Shown: positions 8,112 through 18,793 of the stretch, one piece after another | Layout: every line of letters starts with the position of its first letter | How positions within the stretch are numbered: position 1 is the first letter of the stretch | NCBI GenBank assembly: GCA_027002405.1 | Contig: JALWZT010000324.1 | Coordinates: 1 to 35,044 of the forward strand | DNA length: 35,044 nt | Direction: 5' to 3' | From: Anaerolineae bacterium | GTDB lineage: Bacteria > Chloroflexota > Anaerolineae > J102 | Program-made: the position numbers and the translations under genes | The notes under the pieces: generated by a model | The model's input: the letters and a program-made list of their open reading frames with translations, nothing else | Told to the model about the DNA's origin: nothing | Database searches by the model: none

Positions 8112-8138
8112 GGGCGATCTGGGGTTGAAAGATGAAGG

Positions 8139-8234
8139 CGGGAGCGAATGGGAGTCGAACCCACCGCGGACGTCTCCGCGACGCCCGCCACCGGTTTTGA
8201 AGACCGGGACGTCCACCGGGACGCATCCGCTCCC
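8139..8234 (-). tRNA. selC: tRNA-Sec (anticodon TCA)
   Basis: The minus strand folds as a bacterial selenocysteine tRNA. It has an 8-bp acceptor stem (GGGAGCGG with TCGCTCCC), a 6-bp D stem (GCGTCC/GGACGT) with a 4-nt loop, anticodon stem CCGGT/ACCGG around loop CTTCAAA (anticodon TCA), and a long variable arm with a 9-bp stem (GCGGGCGTC/GACGTCCGC). The 5-bp T stem has loop TTCGACT, and the discriminator is G followed by CC; the terminal A is not encoded. The 8+5 layout and 6-bp D stem separate it from tRNA-Ser and from opal suppressors. It reads UGA as selenocysteine together with SelA, SelB and SelD, none of which is in this window. Confidence 0.96.
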
Positions 8235-15557: not shown

Positions 15558-15965
15558 ATGCCGATTTACGAATACTACTGTGTCGATTGTCGCAAAAAGG
15601 TGTCTCTCTTTTTCCGTACGGTGACCGCGGCCCAGGAGGCGGAGCCCGTTTGCCCACGCTGCGGGGGCCGACGGTTGCATCGGCTTATCTCCCGGGTGGC
15701 CGTGGTCCATTCCGAAGAGGACCGATTAGAACGATTGATGGATGATACATCCCTGCTCGCGGGCCTGGAAAATGAAGACCCCCGGGCCCTGGCCCGTTTT
15801 ATGCGCACCATGCAGAACGAATTGGGCGAAGAGCTGAATGATCCCGAATTGGAGGACATGATCGATCGCCTGGAAGCAGGCGAATCGCCCGAGGCCATTG
15901 AAGCCAGTTTGGGCTTGAATGAGCCGGGCCATGAAAAAAGCGCCGGTTCCACGACCGACGCTTAA
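15558..15965 (+). CDS. FmdB-family zinc ribbon protein
   Basis: 135 aa. The N-terminus MPIYEYYCVDC is the FmdB/CxxC regulatory-domain signature; C8, C11, C32 and C35 would bind one zinc. The rest is acidic and helical (LGEELNDPELEDMIDRLEAGESPEAIE). The family is named after a putative regulator of formamidase and amidase genes, but its role is not established. A GAGGTGAG ribosome-binding site precedes the ATG. The final codons also encode, on the opposite strand, the terminator of tRNA-Leu. Convergent to that tRNA with a 3-bp gap. Confidence 0.88.
   Translation: MPIYEYYCVDCRKKVSLFFRTVTAAQEAEPVCPRCGGRRLHRLISRVAVVHSEEDRLERLMDDTSLLAGLENEDPRALARFMRTMQNELGEELNDPELEDMIDRLEAGESPEAIEASLGLNEPGHEKSAGSTTDA
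15934..15963 (-). terminator. Rho-independent terminator of tRNA-Leu, inside fmdB
   Basis: On the minus strand AAGCGTCGGT, a 6-nt loop, ACCGGCGCTT (10-bp stem with one G-U) and then a run of T (plus strand AAAAAA at 15934-15939). It begins 6 bases after the tRNA CCA end and lies within the last ten codons of fmdB. Confidence 0.8.
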
Positions 15966-15968
15966 ACA

Positions 15969-16054
<86 letters not shown>

Positions 16055-16066
16055 TTACCACGTCCA

Positions 16067-16095
16067 ATTATACGGAAGCAGGGCTTATTTGTCAA
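16067..16095 (-). promoter_or_regulatory. Perfect consensus promoter of tRNA-Leu
   Basis: Minus strand TTGACA (16095-16090), 17-bp spacer, TATAAT (16072-16067): both hexamers and the spacing match the sigma-70 ideal. The -10 ends 12 bases before the mature tRNA 5' end. The -35 overlaps that of the divergent plsX promoter. Confidence 0.88.
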
Positions 16096-16118
16096 CCTTT
16101 CACTTGATCCATTAGAAT
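16089..16118 (+). promoter_or_regulatory. Promoter of plsX-fabF, sharing its -35 with the tRNA-Leu promoter
   Basis: TTGTCA (16089-16094), 18-bp spacer, TAGAAT (16113-16118); predicted start near 16125. Five bases of the -35 are also the -35 of the opposite tRNA promoter. Confidence 0.65.
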
Positions 16119-16190
16119 AGTGTTTTGGCGCGACCTCACGCGCCGCCACTTGTTATACAAACTGATAACAACCCCTTCTACGAGCTCAAC

Positions 16191-17330
16191 ATGCCCTTGC
16201 CCCCATTACCCTCCTTTTCTCTTCCTTCTTTTTCTCGCCCCTTCTCTTCCGCCCCTGCTGCGGACCCTTCTCCCCTTTCCCCGTCATCTCCCTCGCCCTC
16301 GGTGCGTCTGGTCCTGGACGCCATGGGCGGGGATTACGCGCCCGAAGAAACCGTGGCCGGTGCCGTGCAATACGCCCGCGCCACCGGGCATACCGTCTTC
16401 CTTGCCGGAGACGAAGCCCGGATCCGTCAGGAATTGGCCAGGTATGACACCACGGGCTTAGAACTCCCCATCGTCCACGCGCCCGACGCCATCCACATGG
16501 ATGAAAAACCGGCCATTGCCGTGCGTCGGAAGAAAGACAACGCCATGGTGGTGGGCATGCGCCTGGTCAAAGCCGGAGAAGCCGATGCCTTTTGTTCTGT
16601 GGGCAATACGGGTGCTGTGCTCACCGCGGGACACATGGTATTCCGTCGCATCCGCGGGGTGCATCGGGCCGTGCTCACGCTCCCCTTTCCTAATCTCAGG
16701 GGGCTGCACATTTTTGGCGATGCAGGCGCCAACGCGGATTGCCGGCCCGAATGGCTGGTGCAGTGGACCTACATGCTTTCCATCTATGCCCAGGTCTTGC
16801 TCGAAATCCCCGAACCCCGGGTGGCCTTCCTGGCCAATGGGGAGGAAGCAGGCAAAGGGAACCGGGTGGTGCAAATGGCCCAGGCCCTGATGGCTCGCCG
16901 TAATCACATTCACTACGTCGGTGTGGTCGAACCCAAAGAAATGATGAACGGCCATGCGGATGTGGTGGTGACCGATGGCTTCACCGGCAACATCGCCATG
17001 AAACAGTCCGAGGCCGTGGCTAATTTGATCTTCAAGCTTCTGAAGCAGGAGATCATGGCCCGATCTCGGGCGAAAGTGGGGGTGGCCCTGGCCAGACCGG
17101 CTTTTCAAGCCACCCTGGCTCGCCTTGATAACCGCGAGTTTGGCGCGGCCCTGCTTTTGGGCCTGAATGGTCTCGTCACCCTGGCCCATGGCCGTTCCAA
17201 ACGGGATGACATTTACCACGCGCTGAAAACCACCGCCTTCCTGGTGGAAGCCGATATGCTGAATCGAACCCGCCACGAGATCGAACGTCTTCTCCTTATC
17301 GCGTCACAAACTCAAGAGGAGCCCGTATGA
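16191..17330 (+). CDS. plsX: Phosphate acyltransferase PlsX
   Basis: PlsX converts acyl-ACP and phosphate into acyl-phosphate, the donor for PlsY in membrane phospholipid synthesis; it is a peripheral membrane enzyme. The core begins VRLVLDAMGGDYAPEETVAGA and continues with VGNTGAVLTAGH, GDAGANADCRPEWLVQW and VTDGFTGNIAMKQSE, all diagnostic. With the ATG at 16191 the protein is 379 aa and carries a ~37-residue Pro/Ser-rich leader ahead of the core, longer than usual. A GTG at 16302 directly before the core is an alternative start, and a TTG at 16125 coincides with the predicted transcription start. The end overlaps fabF by ATGA. Confidence 0.95.
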   Translation: MPLPPLPSFSLPSFSRPFSSAPAADPSPLSPSSPSPSVRLVLDAMGGDYAPEETVAGAVQYARATGHTVFLAGDEARIRQELARYDTTGLELPIVHAPDAIHMDEKPAIAVRRKKDNAMVVGMRLVKAGEADAFCSVGNTGAVLTAGHMVFRRIRGVHRAVLTLPFPNLRGLHIFGDAGANADCRPEWLVQWTYMLSIYAQVLLEIPEPRVAFLANGEEAGKGNRVVQMAQALMARRNHIHYVGVVEPKEMMNGHADVVVTDGFTGNIAMKQSEAVANLIFKLLKQEIMARSRAKVGVALARPAFQATLARLDNREFGAALLLGLNGLVTLAHGRSKRDDIYHALKTTAFLVEADMLNRTRHEIERLLLIASQTQEEPV

Positions 17331-18793
17331 CATTGGAACCCATGACTCGGGATCAACTGGCCGAGTTGGCCCGCCGCCTGCAAGACGCCCCTGCGGCAGT
17401 ACGCGCCCTGATCCTGGAAACCCTTAAATCATTGGAAAAACCTCACCTTTCTCCCACCGCTGTGGCGGAAGATGTGCTACAAAAGACCAAAGGCCTTTCC
17501 GCGAGTGTGGTCGAACAGGCTTTGCATTTCGCCCGGGAAGGCGTACGGCGCCGGGTGGTGGTGACCGGCCTGGGCGCGGTCACGGCGGTGGGGCAAAATG
17601 TATCTGACATGTGGGAGAACCTGGTGGCCGGCCGTTCCGGCATCGATTACGTCACCCTTTTCGACGCGTCGCCCTATCCCACACGCATTGCGGCCGAAGT
17701 CAAGGATTGGGACCCCACCCGCTATATGCCCCGCAAAGAGGCGCGACGCATGGCCCGGTGTTCCCAATTTGCCATTGGCATGGCCCAGCAGGCCCTGGAA
17801 GATGCCGGTCTTTCGACCCAGGGGGACCTGGGCGACCGGGTGGGCACCGTCATCGGCACGGGCCTGGGGGGCTTTGAAATCTACCAGAAAGCCATCACCG
17901 ACGCGGCCAAACGAGGGCGTTTTCGCGTGCCTCCTATGACCGCGGTGGGGGGCCTGCCCAACATGCCCGCGTTTCACATCAGCCAGCGTTTTGGCGCCAT
18001 GGGCCCTTTGAACACCATCGTCACCGCGTGTGCCGCGGGCACTCAGGCCGTGGGCGAGGCCGCGGAATATATCCGCCGAGGCTACGCGGATGTGATCATC
18101 GCCGGCGGGGTCGAAGCCCTCATCGGCGATATGTTCTTCGCCAGTTTCTCCTCCATGAAAGCCATCAGCACCCGCAACGATCCGCCGCACAAGGCCAGTC
18201 GACCTTTTGACGCCAATCGGGATGGCTTTATCATCGGGGAAGGGGGCGCGGCGTTGATCCTGGAGGACCTGGAGCATGCCCTGGCCCGGGGCGCACATAT
18301 CTACGCGGAAATCATCGGCCATTCCGCCTCGGCCGATGCCTATCATGTGGCCGCACCCCATCCCGAAGGTCTGGGCGCACAAAATGCCATGCGCTGGGCC
18401 CTGGAGGATGCCGGGATCCGACCCGAAGACGTGGATTACATCAACGCGCATGGGACCAGCACCAAGCTCAACGACAAAACCGAAACCTACGCCATCAAAA
18501 AACTCTTTGGCGAACACGCCTACAACCTGGCCATTAACTCCACCAAATCGATGATCGGCCATGCCTTCGGCGGTGCAGGGGCTATCGAGGCGGTGGTATC
18601 GGTGCTCAGCGTCTTCCGGGACCTGCTCCACCCCACCATCAACTACGAAACCCCGGACCCCGAATGCGACCTGGATTATGTGCCCAATCAGGCTCGACAC
18701 CAACGGGTGAATATCGCCCTTTCCAATTCCTTTGGCCTGGGCGGCCAGAATGCCTGCCTGGTGGTCAAAAAATACACCCCTTCCACGCCTTAA
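17327..18793 (+). CDS. fabF: Beta-ketoacyl-ACP synthase II with N-terminal helical extension
   Basis: The KAS II enzyme condenses malonyl-ACP with acyl-ACP in fatty acid elongation. The catalytic triad is complete: Cys235 in TACAAG, His375 in HGTST and His412 in SMIGHAFGGAGA. The synthase domain starts near residue 75 (RRVVVTGLGAVTAVG) and fills the usual ~410 residues. Ahead of it is a ~74-residue charged helical extension (for example LAELARRLQDAPAAVRALILE) not found in standard FabF. The ATG overlapping the plsX stop makes the extension part of the reading frame as translated, though an internal start cannot be excluded. acpP, fabD and fabG are not in the window. Confidence 0.94.
   Translation: MTLEPMTRDQLAELARRLQDAPAAVRALILETLKSLEKPHLSPTAVAEDVLQKTKGLSASVVEQALHFAREGVRRRVVVTGLGAVTAVGQNVSDMWENLVAGRSGIDYVTLFDASPYPTRIAAEVKDWDPTRYMPRKEARRMARCSQFAIGMAQQALEDAGLSTQGDLGDRVGTVIGTGLGGFEIYQKAITDAAKRGRFRVPPMTAVGGLPNMPAFHISQRFGAMGPLNTIVTACAAGTQAVGEAAEYIRRGYADVIIAGGVEALIGDMFFASFSSMKAISTRNDPPHKASRPFDANRDGFIIGEGGAALILEDLEHALARGAHIYAEIIGHSASADAYHVAAPHPEGLGAQNAMRWALEDAGIRPEDVDYINAHGTSTKLNDKTETYAIKKLFGEHAYNLAINSTKSMIGHAFGGAGAIEAVVSVLSVFRDLLHPTINYETPDPECDLDYVPNQARHQRVNIALSNSFGLGGQNACLVVKKYTPSTP

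Follow-up and report, generated by a model that had tools for sequence, protein, structure and literature searches.

The tRNA-Leu/plsX locus

The window, that is the whole stretch of DNA that was analysed (35,044 nucleotides of contig JALWZT010000324.1 from an Anaerolineae bacterium), carries on its minus strand a tRNA-Leu gene with the anticodon GAG (15969-16054) and, divergently on the plus strand, the core of plsX (16302-17330), followed by a fabF-like ketoacyl synthase gene (17327-18793) whose start overlaps the plsX end. The tRNA was called by ARAGORN and has DNA matches (E≤1e-8) in 46 of 61 genomes, its own included; although both lines of evidence support the tRNA, no Rfam match was obtained for 15969-16054. 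The plsX core (VRLVLDAMGGD...), the start of which was placed by comparison with relatives, belongs to the Pfam family FA_synthesis (PF02504, E 1.5e-81), and the fabF-like protein to ketoacyl-synt (E 3.7e-54). The plsX open frame extends upstream of 16302, where starts at ATG 16191 or TTG 16125 are possible. Between 16125 and 16302 this frame encodes a proline/serine-rich N-terminal extension, while the proteins of relatives begin at the core, and by eye the stretch has no obvious ribosome-binding site for the plsX frame.

Downstream of the tRNA a terminator-like hairpin with a T run (about 15938-15965, minus strand; terminator scan and sequence) is situated within the 3' end of a zinc-ribbon gene, which is convergent to the tRNA, lies upstream of plsX and is read in the same direction as plsX. 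No Rfam family indicative of a leader RNA was detected at E≤1 within 15900-16330, a stretch in which the tRNA is likewise without an Rfam match. Farther away in the window, both ARAGORN and Rfam identified a selenocysteine tRNA (8137-8234).

Predicted divergent promoters with a common -35 element

On the minus strand, TTGACA (16095-16090), a 17-nt spacer and TATAAT (16072-16067) make a 12/12 promoter match, seen in the sequence and in the promoter scan, and 12 nt separate the end of this TATAAT from the tRNA. On the plus strand the scan returned TTGTCA (16089-16094), an 18-nt spacer and TAGAAT (16113-16118), a 10/12 match directed towards plsX-fabF, which is the sole plus-strand promoter-like site of at least 9/12 between 15400 and 17400. 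Each strand has a sigma-70-type pair of -35 and -10 hexamers at a distance of 16-18 bp. The sequence-only reading of this region had proposed two divergent promoters on one -35 box, with hexamers overlapping by five bases and the tRNA side the stronger. Overlapping divergent promoters at 16067-16118 are confirmed: the five bases are 16090-16094, the scan reproduces the asymmetry in strength, and the box layout together with its conservation supports two promoters, the activity of which we infer.

The two -10 boxes stand 40 bases apart (16072 to 16113) and the -35 is the element in common, a heptamer TTGTCAA (16089-16095) that can be read as a -35 on both strands; in its general form, TTGNCAA, it is its own reverse complement except for the middle base. 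Assuming a start 7 nt past each -10, the predicted divergent starts lie back to back, about 65 bp apart.

Part of this overlap comes free. Any TTGACAA promoter has a 5/6 -35 on the opposite strand (on the other strand TTGACA becomes TGTCAA, and one preceding T suffices). The same genome has 27 perfect promoters, 15 of which have this T, so the overlapping -35 is by itself unremarkable. On the other hand, a single one of these 27, that of the window, is accompanied 16-18 nt away by a reverse -10 with a match of 5/6 or more, and dinucleotide shuffles of the downstream 60 nt produced a plus -10 in 0.76% per locus (96/12600). Judged from these counts, the informative part of the overlap is the second -10, not the doubled -35.

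Gene order in relatives

Searches placed plsX in 277 of the 296 class genomes and in 56 of the 61 relatives. Upstream DNA was read at 122 plsX loci, chosen from the matches listed together with the relatives' loci and hence not a random sample, with at least 300 bp available at 117 of them and less than 300 bp at five. A tRNA was present within about 1.4 kb of plsX at 36 of the 122 loci; in all 36 it is a divergent tRNA-Leu(GAG), beyond which a tRNA-Thr lies in one genome (G129). The same divergent tRNA was found at 11 of 80 named plsX loci from other genomes, some of the 80 having little upstream DNA; eight of these 11 are from Anaerolineae, Anaerolineales, Anaerolineaceae or Anaerolinea and three from Chloroflexi bacteria. 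A degV-family gene is inserted between tRNA and plsX in G011 and G048.

Promoter comparisons were made on 37 plsX-adjacent class loci (the 36 and G025), extended to 48 by the eleven named loci; L071 and G092 seem to represent the same genome. Two loci, L035 (plsX start motif not found) and L016 (without plsX start), were left out of the plsX loci, and five others (G058, G089, G092, G102 and G124) stand outside the 37 although in them, too, the tRNA adjoins plsX and the pattern is present.

Conservation of the shared-promoter layout

A plus-strand -10 was scored when a hexamer matching at least 5/6, A2 and T6 included, lay at a spacing of 16-18 nt. Such a -10 occurs at 27 of the 37 plsX-adjacent class loci, in each case as TA[CGA]AAT together with TTGTCA, against 0.76% in the shuffles, the other 10 lacking the shared plus promoter. 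The 27 loci span nine families (f1, f2, f7, f10, f17, f23, f24, f34 and f36), which do not represent independent events because one ancestral arrangement may have been inherited. TTGTCA is present in all 28 plsX-adjacent loci with a plus -10, and the third base of the plsX-side -10 is C, G or A in 28/28; the consensus T, and with it TATAAT, never appears, and the plsX side is therefore kept below consensus. The tRNA promoter matches at 11-12 of 12 positions at 48/48 plsX-adjacent loci.

Comparison of nine genus genomes showed the tRNA -10 and the heptamer (7/7 positions) to be invariant, and the plsX -10 to be invariant save for its third base (5/6 positions; TAGAAT in the window, TACAAT in the other eight members). 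Not one of the 60 positions in 16131-16190 is invariant in the same genomes; the plsX promoter boxes are conserved beyond the neighbouring sequence. Conservation in relatives had been named by the sequence-only reading as a check on the overlap, and both the 27 class loci in nine families and the near-invariance of the boxes in the genus speak for it. Also invariant in all nine genomes of the genus is an ATCC situated two bases ahead of the plus -10. In the own genome ATCCNNTANAATG has 14 occurrences versus 0 for the reversed control; it may be a lineage-specific element preceding the -10, and its excess may just mirror -10 enrichment.

plsX and fatty-acid genes are known to be under lipid regulators such as FapR. 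In contrast to control of this type, no conserved operator was seen here: an inverted repeat, TTGTTAT-8-ATAACAA at 16150-16171, which is placed after the plsX promoter and ahead of the open frame, lies in the stretch without genus-invariant positions. This repeat, as well as the hairpin GGCGCG-6-CGCGCC (16127-16144) just beyond the predicted plsX start, was rejected as an operator, neither being conserved in the genus.

Other layouts at the same locus

At 12 short-spacer loci without the shared -35 promoter (in G045, G201, G261 and nine named genomes), a palindromic -10, ATTATAAT, provides TATAAT on both strands. This element is found at 12 of the 20 plsX-adjacent loci that lack the shared -35 promoter versus none of the 28 that have it (Fisher p 2e-6, relatedness ignored), and at 2 of 81 other perfect promoters counted in four genomes (G045, G201, G261 and G246). 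A good plus-strand -35 for ATTATAAT was not found in G045, G201, G261, L060 and L086. Its geometry resembles that of described bidirectional promoters, and we regard a role in plsX expression as a candidate, to be taken as a lead.

In G012 and G227 a plus-strand TACAAT is accompanied by its own -35 (TTGTAA and TTGGCA, respectively), and TGTCAA is preceded by C. These separate boxes imply that sharing of the -35 is not obligatory, and suggest that any coupling between tRNA and plsX can be lost. Six loci (G037, G049, G072, G140, G293 and the named L049) show no plus-strand promoter of at least 9/12 in the first 330 nt. The distance from the tRNA -35 core to plsX is just 20-45 nt or so in some relatives.

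Orientation of the facing gene

From DNA matches, 25 further tRNA-Leu(GAG) loci that are not beside plsX were collected, a second copy in G050 being excluded for too little sequence. Six of the 25 have the plus -10. In five of these six the facing gene points away from the tRNA, the contig of the sixth (G004) ending too early to judge; the genes in these five are degV-plsX (G048), a gene which we take from its domains to be radA-like (G034), a tRNA-Arg (G046), a histidine kinase gene (G047) and a membrane protein gene with plsX farther along the same contig (G042). The plus -10 is absent from all six loci where the next gene, Pfam-supported in each case, is on the minus strand, and the tRNA promoter is still 12/12 there. 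The genes in question encode a VanW-like protein (G018), an ABC transporter (G038), the TRCF helicase (G024), CarD (G040), an ABC-ATPase-domain protein (G021) and a FAD-binding protein (G036). A Pfam-supported divergent gene is nonetheless found without a shared plus -10 in G053 (phosphoribosyltransferase) and G044 (radical SAM). Among the 19 loci without a plus -10, these eight have neighbours that could be assigned and enter the comparison. In the loci compared, the plus -10 goes with the presence of a divergent gene, although not as a strict rule.

The extra T that turns the opposite strand of the tRNA -35 into TTGTCA goes with the same -10: among 67 loci with a TTGACA at the tRNA it is present in 34/34 with the plus -10 and in 20/33 without (Fisher p 2e-5, relatedness ignored).

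Occurrence elsewhere in the class

The composite pattern was returned in 85 rows from 66 of the 296 class genomes, and a control with the last -10 at a wrong distance in 27 rows (24 places) from 22 genomes; the built-in reversed control was 0 for both versions. The wrong-distance count is not a pure chance level, because some of the 27 rows carry an additional, separate -35, and such rows would partly be real separate promoters.

Among those of the 85 rows whose neighbours were inspected, further recurrent pairs without tRNA-Leu are formed, for instance, by a gene with DHH/CBS domains and an unknown gene, by a zinc-ribbon gene and an acyl-CoA dehydrogenase gene, and by a tRNA-Val and an unknown gene. 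TATAAT is often the second -10 at other shared -35 sites, unlike on the plsX side.

Single sites were also inspected. A DHH-family gene and an unknown gene share one -35 at L320, L321, L322, L325 and L326 (families f6 and f36), the assignment being by Pfam for L320 and L325 and by resemblance for L321, L322 and L326; in L163 and L164 (f2) a similar gene comes after the site. In L315 and L316 (f39) an acyl-CoA dehydrogenase gene is placed opposite the common -35, each side having a consensus -10; it was recognized by Pfam in L315, where the other gene is a zinc-ribbon gene, and by resemblance in L316. In L210 and L312, tRNA-Leu(GAG) and tRNA-Arg(CCT) diverge from one TTGTCAA, again with consensus -10s on both sides.

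A proposed bidirectional housekeeping promoter

We propose that a near-palindromic -35 (TTGNCAA) is most likely the basis of a conserved bidirectional housekeeping promoter at the tRNA-Leu/plsX site, with a sub-consensus plsX side. The proposal is carried by the anatomy of the site, its conservation and the co-occurrence of the plus -10 and divergent genes, as found in the genomes compared; the fact that the layout is kept in many relatives suggests that both promoters work. The heptamer would be read as a -35 on both strands, as TTGACA towards the tRNA and as TTGTCA (5/6) towards plsX, with a -10 lying 16-18 bp off on each side. The two directions would be mutually exclusive at any moment, because a polymerase in one orientation would cover the -35 needed by the other; that two polymerases do not occupy the site simultaneously we infer from this geometry and from established promoter knowledge. 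The ratio between the directions would be set by sequence, with a consensus tRNA side against a sub-consensus plsX side.

For bidirectional promoters of E. coli with a common -10, it is described that, as long as strength is basal, a weaker promoter on one side hardly changes the other, and that strong competition appears once one -35 is improved (PMC12825309). The consensus tRNA promoter should belong to the strong-competition class, and for this reason the output of plsX-fabF is probably limited by the occupancy of the tRNA promoter. The main role of the arrangement is probably the compact constitutive expression of both units, and a regulated anti-correlation between tRNA and plsX is possible.

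A serious alternative to regulation, to which we give only slightly less than an even chance, is that the layout was locked in without function: a -10 was gained opposite the strong tRNA -35 and was kept since each gene depends on a promoter and no single mutation can pull the two apart. The gain of one -10 beside a TTGACAA promoter is sufficient for this, separated forms exist, and the users of the site at tRNA-Leu(GAG) are varied (plsX, degV-plsX, the radA-like gene, tRNA-Arg and the histidine kinase gene). Lock-in alone, however, does not account for a plsX -10 that is never consensus in 28 loci when TATAAT is often found at other shared sites.

The sequence-only reading had suggested that competition at the common -35 raises plsX-fabF when the tRNA promoter is less occupied, which we consider unlikely. 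The conserved asymmetry (the tRNA promoter at 11-12/12 in 48/48 loci, the plsX -10 never TATAAT in 28/28) is in line with such a regulatory effect, as is the competition between the two sides of E. coli bidirectional promoters once one side is strong; in that study, however, the promoters have the -10 in common, not the -35 (PMC12825309), and another E. coli study describes -10 and -35 boxes that gave no repression (PMC11661796). Moreover, the -35s are separate in G012 and G227 and the layout is another one in the 12 short-spacer loci, and starvation could either empty or stall the tRNA promoter, which leaves the direction of the effect unpredictable. A fortuitous plus-strand match, or one that serves as an upstream element of the tRNA promoter, with plsX being read from elsewhere, for example through from the codirectional zinc-ribbon gene, is very improbable: TTGTCA is nearly free with TTGACAA and the tRNA -35 core comes close to plsX in some relatives, but the plus -10 is kept at promoter spacing in nine families, is absent at 6/6 loci without a divergent gene and occurs at 0/26 other perfect promoters of the own genome.

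Relation to known bidirectional promoters

Bidirectional promoters of E. coli and Salmonella were reportedly the subject of work by Warman et al. in 2021. The bidirectional housekeeping promoter proposed here is similar to that group in that divergent transcription would proceed via a near-symmetric core element, with one polymerase orientation at once (PMC12825309, PMC10268837). In E. coli and Salmonella the -10 is the common element and the starts are 7-25 bp apart (PMC12825309, PMC10268837), whereas in the window the -35 is common, the -10s are separate and a tRNA occupies one side; the window has no common symmetric -10, and its predicted start distance of 65 bp falls outside the 7-25 bp by which bidirectional promoters are defined in PMC10268837. 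A likeness also exists to ilvY-ilvC of E. coli, where two promoters fire apart from one intergenic region; coupling is described there as supercoiling (PMC4469952), while in the window the core elements themselves overlap. No description of divergent promoters with a common -35, or of a tRNA-plsX pair, was found in the open-access literature, which is weak evidence of absence.

Relative to the bidirectional promoters described, the new trait of this putative promoter would be symmetry at the -35 instead of the -10. We tentatively suggest, at somewhat less than an even chance, that -35 symmetry (TTGNCAA) defines a second class of bacterial bidirectional promoter, recurrent in this Chloroflexota class, that three layouts (shared -35, palindromic -10 and separate) are used at tRNA-Leu/plsX, and that the shared form fixes an exclusive ratio of tRNA to membrane-lipid expression. 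If the -35 can be the common element, a definition of 7-25 bp (PMC10268837) would overlook pairs whose starts are separated by about 65 bp. The natural variants with a shared -35, a palindromic -10 or separated promoters would be material for the study of polymerase competition between a tRNA and lipid genes.
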